NCBI GenBank assembly: GCA_949288065.1
Contig: CASEIL010000002.1
Location: forward strand, 62,001-126,000
Source of the DNA: an uncultured Phascolarctobacterium sp.
GTDB lineage: Bacteria; Bacillota; Negativicutes; Acidaminococcales; Acidaminococcaceae
DNA length: 64,000 nt
Direction: 5' to 3'
Shown here: one piece after another, positions 20,801-53,577 of the stretch
Position numbering within the stretch: the stretch's first letter is position 1
Layout of the letters: each line of letters opens with the position of its first letter
Translations under genes and position numbers: made by a program
The notes under the pieces: model-generated
The model's input: only the letters and a program-made list of their open reading frames with translations
The model's database searches: none
What the model was told of the DNA's origin: nothing

Positions 20801-20905
20801 GCAAAAATAAAAGCCTTCCGGTCCCCATGAGGATAGGAAGGCTTGTAGTACAAGTTACCTAAAAGTCTACCTTACAGTCTCACAGGACCGATTTAAAGGT
20901 ATTAG
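20801..20905 (-). promoter_or_regulatory. PyrR-type attenuation leader of the pyr operon
   Basis: Read on the minus strand, the leader holds ACCTT...AAGGT flanking CGGTCCTGTGAGACTG, which matches the PyrR binding loop of Bacillus-type anti-antiterminators. Downstream, AAGCCTTCC pairs with GGAAGGCTT and is followed by TTTTATTTTT, the terminator (20801-20844). The CGGTCC of the PyrR loop is the exact complement of GGACCG in the terminator region, giving the competing antiterminator. By the Bacillus model, UMP-bound PyrR would stabilise the first hairpin and allow termination. No pyrR lies in this operon. Confidence 0.85.
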
Positions 20906-49903: not shown

Positions 49904-50575
49904 TTATTTTTGCCTGCCTTCTATAAACTGCATGGCAGCGTTAAAGGTATTATCAATGTGCAGCGCCATGGCGTTTTTGGCTGCGTCCATATCGCGCGCC
50001 GCCACCGCCTCGTAAATGCGGCGGTGCTCCAGCACCGTTTCGGTGTAGCGGCTGCGGCTGGAAAATATTGCCTGCATACCAAAACTTTTGCTTTTATCGC
50101 GCATCTGCCCTATTAAATCCCGCAGCAGCGGGCTGCCAGCTATTTTGAGCAAAATGCCGTGGAACTCCACATCGTAGTCGATGAACTCTTCCACAACCGG
50201 CTCGTCGTTAACAAGCAGCGCCTCCTGCTTCTGCATACTTGCGTGCAGCTCAGCCAAAAGCGGCGGCGTTATGCGCTGCACCACGGCTTCCATTACCATA
50301 ACCTCCAGCGCTTTGCGCACGCGGAACACGTCCTTTAAATCCTCCAGCGACATCTGCTTAACCAAAATGCCCTTGTAAGGTACGTATTCCACCCAGCCTT
50401 CCGCCTCCAGCGCCTTCAGCGCCTCGCGCACCGGCGTTTTGCTTACGCTCAGCTCCTGCGAAATTTTCTTTTCGTTCAGCACGGTGTTGTGCGGGTAAGT
50501 TTGATTGATAATATCCTCTTTAATAATTTCGTAAATCTGGTCCTTTAAGGACTTTGCCTTTTGCAGCTGCTTCAT
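49904..50575 (-). CDS. GntR-family transcription regulator, FCD (FadR-like) subgroup
   Basis: A 223-residue regulator. The winged helix holds LKDQIYEIIKEDIINQTY, KKISQELSVSKTPVREALKALEAEGWV. The C-terminal all-helical FCD domain has DYDVEFHGILLKIAGSP and LEHRRIYEAVAARDMDAA, with Asp/His residues that usually bind a metal and an acidic ligand. It is the last gene of the nitrilase-DUF2848-permease set and also has a possible promoter of its own. FCD regulators usually repress the catabolic genes beside them; the palindromes at the operon promoter are candidate sites. Confidence 0.92.
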   Translation of the reverse strand: MKQLQKAKSLKDQIYEIIKEDIINQTYPHNTVLNEKKISQELSVSKTPVREALKALEAEGWVEYVPYKGILVKQMSLEDLKDVFRVRKALEVMVMEAVVQRITPPLLAELHASMQKQEALLVNDEPVVEEFIDYDVEFHGILLKIAGSPLLRDLIGQMRDKSKSFGMQAIFSSRSRYTETVLEHRRIYEAVAARDMDAAKNAMALHIDNTFNAAMQFIEGRQK

Positions 50576-50639: not shown

Positions 50640-51893
50640 TTAAATAATAAAGGTTAAAATAAAGCAGGCTGCTGCGCCGACAAGCATTGCCGGGCGCTGG
50701 TATCTGTTAGCAAGCTTCTGCACTGTGCCCGGGATAACGCCTGCCACAACAGGCAGTGCCGTTAACGCGCCGCCGCTTAAGAACAGCTGCATTACCGCAG
50801 CGCCGGTAATAGCGGCGAAGCTGGTTGCCAGCGGGTCGCAGCCCATATCCAGCACGATTTGCGTAAACGGCAGGATAATCGGCGCCGACGCCGCGTAGGA
50901 CTGCGTAACCAGACCGGCTGTAAACGACGCCAGGAACAAAAGCTGTATCGGCGCCAGCGACAGGTACGGGCGCACATATTCAGCAATAAGCGTTACCAAA
51001 CCAACTTTAGTAATTACGTTGGACATAAACATTAAGCTGATGATTGCAACGATAGGAATTGCAATTTGCGTTACACCGCTGACCATGGCTTTTTCGCCGT
51101 CAGCAAGGCTCATGTGCGTCATGATAATTACCAAAATACCGCAGAACATGCCAACCAAAAATACCGGAATGCCTGCAAAAAAGGCTACGCACAAAACCAA
51201 AAACGGAAAGAACGCCTTTTTAAAAGAAGGAGAACCCTCTGGCAGCGGCTCAAACGAACCGTCGTCGTCTGTTTTAATGCCGATGCCTTCGGCGATAAGT
51301 TCGCGTTTGGCGCGGTAATAGCAAAATACATAAATCCAGATGCTGCCGATTAAGCCATACATATTAATCAGGCCAAATTTTACGCCGGTAATTGCCAGAA
51401 TGGCAAGATATGTAGGATGCGTAAAGCTACAGCAGTTGGCAACGGTATTAGCTAACGAAATAATACCGGCTGCTTTATTCGGCGTAAGCCCTAAACGCAC
51501 TGCCGCCGGGCCTGCAACGGTAGCGGTAATTACCGGCTGCGTAAACGCCGTTAACGCTCCCAGCATGGCAGCAGCCAAACCTGCCGCCGTAGATACGCCC
51601 GGTGCGCCGCCCTTTTTGCGCCCAAAATCAACAATATGCCAGATAATAACATCCATATAACCACATTTTTGCATAATGCCGATAAACAGCAGCACGCCCA
51701 GCATATCGACAATAACAGGGTTTATGGAAGCAATCAAAAGCTTCTGCACGGTAATCTCGGCAGTGCCCGTCAGCGGAAAGCCTGCCGCAAAGCACGCCAG
51801 CGCCGAACCAACCGTCGCCGTTATATACAGCGGTGCCCAACCAGCAATCATTACCGCCAGCGTTAAAACCATAATTATCTGTGCTAATTCCAT
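50640..51893 (-). CDS. Permease of the ion-transporter (IT) superfamily, substrate unknown
   Basis: A 417-residue membrane protein with about 11-12 hydrophobic segments in two halves separated by a charged cytoplasmic loop near residues 210-235. The two helical-hairpin regions are visible as AFTQPVITATVAGPAA and later VTQSYAASAPIILPFTQ, in the style of dicarboxylate or gluconate-type secondary carriers. I cannot assign a substrate. It is between DUF2848 and gntR, so it probably imports the compound handled by the two upstream enzymes. Confidence 0.82.
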   Translation of the reverse strand: MELAQIIMVLTLAVMIAGWAPLYITATVGSALACFAAGFPLTGTAEITVQKLLIASINPVIVDMLGVLLFIGIMQKCGYMDVIIWHIVDFGRKKGGAPGVSTAAGLAAAMLGALTAFTQPVITATVAGPAAVRLGLTPNKAAGIISLANTVANCCSFTHPTYLAILAITGVKFGLINMYGLIGSIWIYVFCYYRAKRELIAEGIGIKTDDDGSFEPLPEGSPSFKKAFFPFLVLCVAFFAGIPVFLVGMFCGILVIIMTHMSLADGEKAMVSGVTQIAIPIVAIISLMFMSNVITKVGLVTLIAEYVRPYLSLAPIQLLFLASFTAGLVTQSYAASAPIILPFTQIVLDMGCDPLATSFAAITGAAVMQLFLSGGALTALPVVAGVIPGTVQKLANRYQRPAMLVGAAACFILTFII

Positions 51894-51935: not shown

Positions 51936-52607
51936 TCAATGCTCTTCAATAACCTTTACCTTGTAGCTCAGGCAAATTTCCCTGCCCAGTTTTTCGTCCA
52001 CCAGCTTGCAGCTGAACTCCTCGCCGAATTTAAAGCCGTCCTTTAAGGGCACAGTGCCGGTGTAAATAAGGCTGTTATCAATGTCGATTTCCTCTTTCAG
52101 CTCGTCCATAATGCGCTGCATCGGCAGCAAATCGCTGGTTACGCCGCACTGGTATTCCACGGTTTTGCCATCTACAACCTGCGTGGAAACCAGCTTAATA
52201 TCGTCAAAATGGTCTTTAATTTCATCATATTCCCAAAAATCCTGCGCATAAGGTTTAAGGCAAACCTGTTTGGATTTATGGATGCTTACGGCTTCCAGCT
52301 CCCTGTCGGTGTGGTCGCTGCCCACGCCGATATAAATTTTGCCGTCCTTTAGCAAAATTAAATATTCAACCTCGCCGCTGGTTTTATCGCCGATAACTTC
52401 AATTTCCTTTTTATCAGTCAAAATCTGTTTTTCGCACTGATACAGCACCGGCACCTTGCGCGGGCATTTAATGCCTTCCGCCTCCAGCTCGTGAATATGC
52501 TCCATCGTTTTTTCAATATCCTTGCCGGCAAAGCCAACTACTAAAAGGTTTTGCAATTCCATTTCTTCCTGGCGGGTGCCTGCTTTGGTAATTACGTTAA
52601 ATTTCAT
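51936..52607 (-). CDS. DUF2848 family protein
   Basis: A 223-residue cytoplasmic protein with the family features VVGFAGKDIEKTMEHIHELEAEGIKCP and VGVGSDHTDRELE. DUF2848 proteins resemble the fumarylacetoacetate-hydrolase fold and are predicted hydrolases or lyases of small oxo-acids, but no member is known to me to be characterised. It starts 18 bases after the amidohydrolase gene and precedes the permease by 42. Confidence 0.85.
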   Translation of the reverse strand: MKFNVITKAGTRQEEMELQNLLVVGFAGKDIEKTMEHIHELEAEGIKCPRKVPVLYQCEKQILTDKKEIEVIGDKTSGEVEYLILLKDGKIYIGVGSDHTDRELEAVSIHKSKQVCLKPYAQDFWEYDEIKDHFDDIKLVSTQVVDGKTVEYQCGVTSDLLPMQRIMDELKEEIDIDNSLIYTGTVPLKDGFKFGEEFSCKLVDEKLGREICLSYKVKVIEEH

Positions 52608-52625: not shown

Positions 52626-53417
52626 TTAAACATGGTAATATTCCGGTTTACGGTCGCGGAAAACATTAATGCTTTCGCGGATGCCTTTAATTACGTCCAA
52701 ATCAATTTCGCCAACCTGTATTTCTTCTTCCGTGCCAAGGTGGCAAATTTCTTCGCCCCACGGGCTGATTAACAACGAATTGCCGCCGTATTTTGTTTCG
52801 CCTGCATAACCACAGCCGTTAACAGCGCACAGGTACATCTGATTTTCGATAGCGCGCGCCGTGTTAAGCGTTACCCAGTGCAGCTTGCGTATAAGCGGCC
52901 ACTGCGCCGGAATAAAGAATAAATCCACGCCCTGCACCGTCGCCGTGCGGATAAGCTCAGGAAAGCGCACATCGTAGCAGATAACCATGGAGCAGCTGAT
53001 GCCGTCCAGCTTAAACAGCTTAACCTGCGTGCCGCCCTTAAAATATTTGTGCTCGGCAGATGGCGTAAAGCCGTGCACCTTATCGTATTCGCACACGCAT
53101 TCTCCTTCGCGGTTAAACACATACGCCGTATTGTAAACAGCGCCGTCTTTTACATTGGCCACGCTGCCTGCCACAATGTTTACGCCGTGCTTTTTGGCAA
53201 AGCTGCCAAACACTTCTTTGGTTTTGGCGCCGTCAACGTCCGCCAGCTCCTGCAAATTTTCTGTCGGGAAAAAGCCCACGTTCAAGGTTTCCGGCAGCAC
53301 CAAAATATCAGGCTTTTCTGCCATGGCTTTTTCCATCAATTCCACCGCGTGGGCAAAATTTTTCTCCGGTTCTGCCATTGCCACATCCATCTGGATGAGG
53401 GCAATTTTTTTCTTCAT
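52626..53417 (-). CDS. Nitrilase-superfamily carbon-nitrogen hydrolase
   Basis: A 263-residue cytoplasmic amidase-type enzyme. The Glu-Lys-Cys triad is recognisable: ILVLPETLNVGFF, YDKVHGFTP and ICYDVRFPEL. Sequence resembles the omega-amidase (Nit2) and N-carbamoyl or deaminated-amide hydrolases; the substrate is not known. The start is at the ATG of MKKKIALIQMD, eight bases after GGGAGG; the frame runs further upstream through the leader and should not be used. It is the first gene of the operon, behind a structured leader. Confidence 0.9.
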   Translation of the reverse strand: MKKKIALIQMDVAMAEPEKNFAHAVELMEKAMAEKPDILVLPETLNVGFFPTENLQELADVDGAKTKEVFGSFAKKHGVNIVAGSVANVKDGAVYNTAYVFNREGECVCEYDKVHGFTPSAEHKYFKGGTQVKLFKLDGISCSMVICYDVRFPELIRTATVQGVDLFFIPAQWPLIRKLHWVTLNTARAIENQMYLCAVNGCGYAGETKYGGNSLLISPWGEEICHLGTEEEIQVGEIDLDVIKGIRESINVFRDRKPEYYHV

Positions 53418-53443
53418 AACAACCGCCTCCCGCCGATAAAATA

Positions 53444-53577
53444 AAAACGCTTTCGCAAAACGGTTGTCCTGCAAAAGCGCCCTTGCTTTATTAACGCACA
53501 GCACCTTGCCGCAAACCGTTCTGGTATTTGCTTATCAAAGTGCTGCAAGCATCAAATGTGATATGTGATATATCACT
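53444..53577 (-). promoter_or_regulatory. Structured 5' leader with intrinsic terminator (candidate attenuator or riboswitch)
   Basis: The transcript of the amidohydrolase operon begins near 53577 and passes a hairpin, CGCTTTTGC with GCGAAAGCG (53444-53480), followed by TTTTTATTTT, before the ribosome-binding site. Upstream, AACGGTT can pair with AACCGTT in the terminator loop, and GCAGCAC with GTGCTGT forms a separate stem. These mutually competing elements suggest conditional termination. I do not recognise a known riboswitch class, and no small peptide frame was identified. Confidence 0.55.

Follow-up and report, generated by a model that had tools for sequence, protein, structure and literature searches.

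Organization and distribution of the operon

The window, a stretch of 64,000 nucleotides (64 kb) from a gut bacterium, an uncultured Phascolarctobacterium sp. whose source genome comprises 1.83 Mb in 44 contigs, carries a four-gene operon on its minus strand. The operon codes for a nitrilase-family amidohydrolase (CN_hydrolase, ATG start, 52626..53417; PF00795, E 9.5e-46), a DUF2848 protein (51936..52607; PF11010, E 2.2e-51), a membrane permease with a weak resemblance to CitMHS (50640..51893; PF03600, E 0.12) and a GntR/FCD transcription regulator (49904..50575; PF00392 and PF07729). The 417-aa permease has no Pfam match above threshold, CitMHS being the best, and sequence comparison gave no convincing relative of solved structure. 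The nearest loci with this operon belong to two uncultured Phascolarctobacterium, G005 and G003 (the same contigs as L040 and L041, respectively), in which the nitrilase is 94% identical. DUF2848 occurs in 16 of 380 genomes of the class, and in three of the six genomes of the genus among those listed. From a reading of protein starts, DUF2848 at L056-L060 also stands beside further transporter and enzyme frames, which we take to be TRAP-type and Nramp-like transporters and an asparaginase-like frame.

DUF2848 is not mentioned in any of the 5.39 million open-licence papers searched, and for this reason the control of its operon could reveal the substrate of this protein family. In the titles and abstracts surveyed on Phascolarctobacterium riboswitches and attenuators, nitrilase or omega-amidase leaders and PyrR, nothing concerned this leader.

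Promoter, structured leader and terminator

All elements of the putative attenuator lie on the minus strand, and the leader that they delimit is structured and about 135 nt long. Its promoter consists of a -35 element TTGCAT (53612-53607), a 17-nt spacer and a -10 element TATACT (53589-53584), and has a counterpart at the same place in G003 and G005 (TTGCAG-17-TATACT); as a simple promoter scanner did not list TTGCAT-17-TATACT before the nitrilase operon, the call rests on reading and on this conservation in two congeners. Judging from the position of the promoter, transcription would start near 53577, about 7 nt past the -10 element. Immediately downstream lies a palindrome, GTGATATATCACATATCAC (53558..53576, approximately +1 to +19), of which GATATATCA-ATATC is kept in the congeners, both of whose leaders contain a related palindrome. 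This palindrome is probably the operator of the operon's own GntR/FCD regulator. A palindrome resembling TGGTATACCA can also be read before the nitrilase gene in G378 and G379, where it is accompanied by a divergent GntR-like frame.

Downstream of the palindrome, the leader folds into a hairpin, the putative anti-antiterminator (53498..53546), made of a lower helix P1 (53546-53536 with 53508-53498), an internal loop and a second stem on top, P2 (53531-53511). An intrinsic terminator follows, CGCTTTTGC/GCGAAAGCG plus a T run (53443..53482), whose end is 25 nt from the nitrilase ATG at 53417; between them is a ribosome-binding site, GGGAGGCGG (53423..53431), with GGAGG 8 nt upstream of the ATG by our reading. 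The right-hand neighbour, a DUF6125 gene extending from 53723 on, is divergent, and the terminator therefore has no gene to end. We considered an in-frame extension of the nitrilase through the terminator up to a GTG at 53504 and rejected it; by reading, the congeners have no start codon there, hence the choice of ATG 53417 as the start.

The whole leader folds at -59.0 kcal/mol (z -7.51), which none of 200 shuffles equals, and the corresponding z values in the two congeners are -5.23 and -4.33; the 53-nt hairpin stretch reaches z -3.40 in the window and -4.64 and -3.39 in the congeners. These results bear out the first-pass annotation, which had described a promoter, about 130 nt of structured leader and a terminator before the ribosome-binding site with no same-strand gene upstream to terminate. 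They also show that the GCAGCAC/GTGCTGT stem that it proposed is real and forms part of P1, an 11-pair helix. The layout is that of a generic attenuator, with a promoter upstream and an intrinsic terminator before the first gene. A search of the window with Rfam revealed no family at threshold on the nitrilase leader, while tmRNA and the SAM riboswitch were detected elsewhere; likewise, none of the 4227 families provided a known aptamer at threshold for the leaders of the window, G003 or G005.

Reading of the intergenic terminators identified two further leader terminators, not located at gene ends, in the 64-kb window, those of the SAM riboswitch leader and of the PyrR leader of pyrB. The latter, which precedes pyrB-pyrC-carA-carB (20806-20903, minus strand), scores 42 bits and stays under the Rfam cut-off of 54, as do real pyrB sites in the genus (40.6-42 bits). 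Among 41 related genomes, 34 have a match to the PyrR family (RF00515) at E<=0.01 and 7 pass the cut-off, so that most PyrR sites of these relatives escape detection at the Rfam threshold.

Conservation of the leader within the genus

In G003 and G005, the operon is likewise preceded by a leader that adopts this fold. A covariance model built from these two leaders alone, structure included (106 positions), finds the window leader over its whole length with 47.0 bits (E 1.7e-7 in 131 kb; E 2.4e-6 within the window's own genome). The corresponding sequence-only model yields 31.6 bits over positions 6-84 of 106, structure thus adding 15 bits. In the three-row alignment, which, having been fitted to the model, is biased in its favour, 80 of 80 cells are paired and three P1 pairs are changed on both sides, whereas only 42-55% of cells pair in slid controls with the partner shifted by 1-3 columns. 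The shuffle control is modest, since the alignment has three rows (covariation as strong as that observed arises in 18 of 500 shuffles), and the 97% identity of two of the three leaders leaves about two independent observations. The promoter, hairpin and terminator are conserved in three species, and the helix is kept through paired changes. The covariance check that had been suggested for homologous leaders is therefore positive, in three species of one genus only.

Conservation is unevenly distributed along the leader. An internal loop/P2 core, ATAAGCAAATA (11 nt), and TTTGC are identical amid variable stems, the P1 strands being identical at 5 of 13 and 8 of 12 positions. In contrast, the 3′ side of the internal loop reads GG in the window but AGA in both congeners, and each of the three leaders has a different hairpin apex. 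Between the window and a congener, the 5′ arm of the terminator is identical at 10 of 10 positions, compared with 1 of 21 in the loop and 7 of 10 in the 3′ arm, the pattern predicted for a 5′ arm that serves two pairing partners.

Searching the 380 genomes of the class with the leader model returned matches at E<=1 in 39 genomes, in which the three nitrilase leaders, all of one genus, are the only convincing copies. Six of the next loci (L065-L070) were inspected and rejected as family members because they read as ordinary gene-end terminators.

Alternative pairing between hairpin and terminator

All three leaders allow the hairpin's 3′ strand to base-pair instead with the terminator, along its 5′ arm and loop. 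In the window, the 5′ half of this candidate antiterminator is AACGGTTTGCGGCAAGG (53504..53520) and its 3′ half lies inside the terminator 5′ arm and loop (53459..53477). We compared the pairing with that of shuffled sequences (2000 each). Shuffles of the terminator arm pair as well in 370 cases for the window, 1 for G003, 8 for G005 and 129 for the pyrB leader; for shuffles of the hairpin strand, the counts are 245, 5, 39 and 175, respectively. The terminator-arm test is weak, given that the real pyrB leader itself scores 129 of 2000, and so is a null drawn from other hairpins of the window (63 hairpins from a loose finder that gave 129 candidates, many of them intragenic, with the native hairpin included). 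Hence the complementarity of AACGGTT (from 53520) to AACCGTT (53465-53459) reported in the first-pass annotation is true but does not rise above chance in the window copy alone, and the argument rests on its equivalents in the congeners.

For the half-made transcript, predicted energies favour the hairpin form over the antiterminator by 4.0 kcal/mol in the window, 3.5 in G003 and 7.8 in G005. Calculated in this way, the PyrR leader that precedes pyrB in the window comes to 2.5 kcal/mol, so that the energy balance does not speak against a switch, and does not fix the default state as on or off either.

Leader terminators before the operon in other families

We extended the comparison to orthologous operons, starting from the 12 of 17 DUF2848 matches that have a nitrilase frame directly upstream or were already in the examined operons (G096, G042, G047, G310 and the second copy of G048 were left out). 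L043, which has a 70% identical nitrilase and in which no DUF2848 frame was seen, was added to make 13 operons. A script requiring a hairpin and a T run at -12 kcal/mol or better retrieved seven (the window, G044, L042/G331, L043, G328, G329 and G098). G098 was dropped, its hairpin lying inside an upstream GntR-like frame, and G003 and G005, both missed by the script because of an A between stem and T run, were added by reading. In total, 8 of the 13 orthologous or near-orthologous operons have a hairpin and T run before the nitrilase start, compared with 6 of 22 control genes of the window with a gap of at least 60 nt, these including the nitrilase, SAM and PyrR leaders.

By eye, the leaders of orthologous operons in other families are unrelated to those of the genus, or there is none. 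G044, from another family and with a nitrilase 77% identical, has a promoter and a terminator, but its leader is not matched by the two-congener model and the pairing of its candidate antiterminator does not exceed chance (162 and 206 of 1000 shuffles). In G328 and G329, about 25 nt separate the -10 element from the hairpin, which by our reading leaves no room for an antiterminator. At L051, L052, L042 and L043, the hairpin and T run are located 17-23 nt upstream of the nitrilase start, some of them about 25 nt past the -10 element. A leader terminator thus recurs before the nitrilase operon; a shared mechanism does not follow.

Proposed mechanism and alternative explanations

A conserved promoter, two-sided changes in the helix, a terminator and an alternative pairing in three species uphold the attenuator layout recognized in the first-pass annotation. 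We propose with moderate confidence that the leader is a transcription attenuator of the nitrilase/DUF2848/permease/GntR operon, predicted to work by a switch between hairpin and antiterminator; it is probably specific to this lineage and located below a probable GntR operator at +1. RNA polymerase would start near 53577. With the hairpin closed (P1 with P2), the terminator would form and transcription would stop before the ribosome-binding site (off), whereas in a hairpin that has been opened or has yet to close, the 3′ strand would pair with the terminator 5′ arm and loop and the operon would be read (on). A factor stabilizing the hairpin would then repress the operon and a factor opening it would activate it, while binding of GntR at +1 would constitute a second regulatory layer. 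We infer the switch, its direction and the type of its effector. Two observations weigh against a switch: the alternative pairing of the window is at chance, and the antiterminator of G005 is 7.8 kcal/mol weaker than the hairpin.

A rival explanation is that the leader is unregulated, with a hairpin and terminator that lower or stabilize expression to a constant degree, regulation being left to GntR at +1 alone. We regard this as rather unlikely but of appreciable weight. The operon encodes a GntR regulator, the palindrome at +1 to +19 has a related one in the congeners, the alternative pairing does not exceed chance in the window, and the hairpins and T runs of G328 and G329 leave no room for a switch. 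Nevertheless, a 49-nt hairpin kept through paired changes, together with the 11-nt identical ATAAGCAAATA, exceeds the needs of a plain terminator, and the antiterminator pairing beats shuffles in both congeners.

Another possibility is a novel class of metabolite riboswitch, in which P1, the internal loop and P2 would form the aptamer and the ligand would be an amide, a keto acid or a compound related to ammonium. The identical core and its TTTGC partner amid variable stems, the lack of a matching Rfam class, and an operon that joins an amidase-like enzyme to a permease are compatible with this idea. We nonetheless consider it unlikely, as the hairpin is small and no copy was found outside the genus in the 380 class genomes. 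Moreover, the unconserved internal-loop 3′ side (AGA versus GG) and the apex, different in all three leaders, argue against a classical metabolite pocket. The size of the hairpin and the variable 3′ side of its loop are also the reasons why we favour an RNA-binding protein over a metabolite as the effector. The first-pass annotation had left the choice between a riboswitch and a protein-controlled attenuator; the attenuator layout stands, and the classical pocket is what the variable loop and apex count against.

We deem it very unlikely that the locus is a small RNA gene placed by chance before the nitrilase gene. A promoter, two hairpins and a terminator do make up a complete short transcript unit, but the ATG follows the end of the terminator by 25 nt, an interval in which no second promoter was recognized by reading, and in all three species the leader accompanies this operon.

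RF00515 ranks at or near the top of the 4227 families for all three leaders, with 24.0, 19.7 and 17.0 bits, below the cut-off of 54, and this ranking led us to test for PyrR membership. A diverged PyrR-binding attenuator would tie the operon to UMP levels. The genome does encode pyrR (NF003549, 261 bits, cut-off 138), the antiterminator is arranged as in the pyrB leader, and the congeners contain CCTTTA...AAAGG, reminiscent of the lower stem of PyrR sites. However, 24 bits amounts to noise in the source genome (E ~0.37). We searched 41 relatives for PyrR sites and examined 30 loci of 56 listed places; CCUUU(U)AA...CCNGNGAG is present in 30 of 30 of these Negativicutes sites and, by reading, in none of the three leaders, which lack both the bulge and the loop (the window has CCAGAACG, G005 has CCAAAAGG and G003 has none). 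A class model of the PyrR hairpin, built from 24 of 25 distinct hairpins (the incomplete L095 was left out), gives pyrB 45.5 bits and nothing else above 12.1 in the window, L040 and L041; none of the three leaders appears among its hits with E up to 10. The signature count and the class model both led us to reject membership, and we consider a diverged PyrR site highly improbable. The view that the class is not a recognized one is therefore sustained: no Rfam family reaches threshold, and the nearest, PyrR, fails on its defining motif. Leader-peptide attenuation is scarcely credible, for although each leader contains short frames, none is common to all three and none was seen with a convincing ribosome-binding site.

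Beyond the proposed attenuator itself, we advance a broader conjecture that we hold only tentatively, as more doubtful than credible: a new attenuator class restricted to the genus, whose hairpin with the fixed ATAAGCAAATA/TTTGC core may reuse the PyrR switching geometry for another effector, other Negativicutes families having apparently placed their own unrelated leader terminators before this uncharacterised amide-metabolism operon. Should the leader turn out to respond to an amide, a keto acid or ammonium, the pathway would be identified by its effector.

Comparison with known systems

The proposed attenuator shares mutually exclusive leader structures with TRAP, LicT/SacY and ANTAR-type systems. 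In the stretch examined, no regulator gene of these types was seen in the operon, and their hallmark RNA sites were not recognized in the leader by reading, the models used being those of Rfam. Like the SAM riboswitch of the window and other terminator-type riboswitches, the nitrilase leader has a terminator that immediately precedes a metabolic operon's ribosome-binding site, but unlike them it has no known aptamer at threshold. The PyrR attenuator (RF00515) differs in its operon, its upper stem, its CNGNGA-type loop and its CCUUUAA internal bulge, the latter two being absent from the nitrilase leaders, which in turn carry additional unpaired nucleotides in the internal loop, on its 3′ side. 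Yet the two resemble each other in the 4-nt 5′ internal loop, in similar length and energy balance, and in a hairpin 3′ strand that alternatively pairs with the terminator 5′ arm and loop. If a protein proves necessary, the leader would show that the switching geometry of PyrR has been put to new use with a different recognition element.
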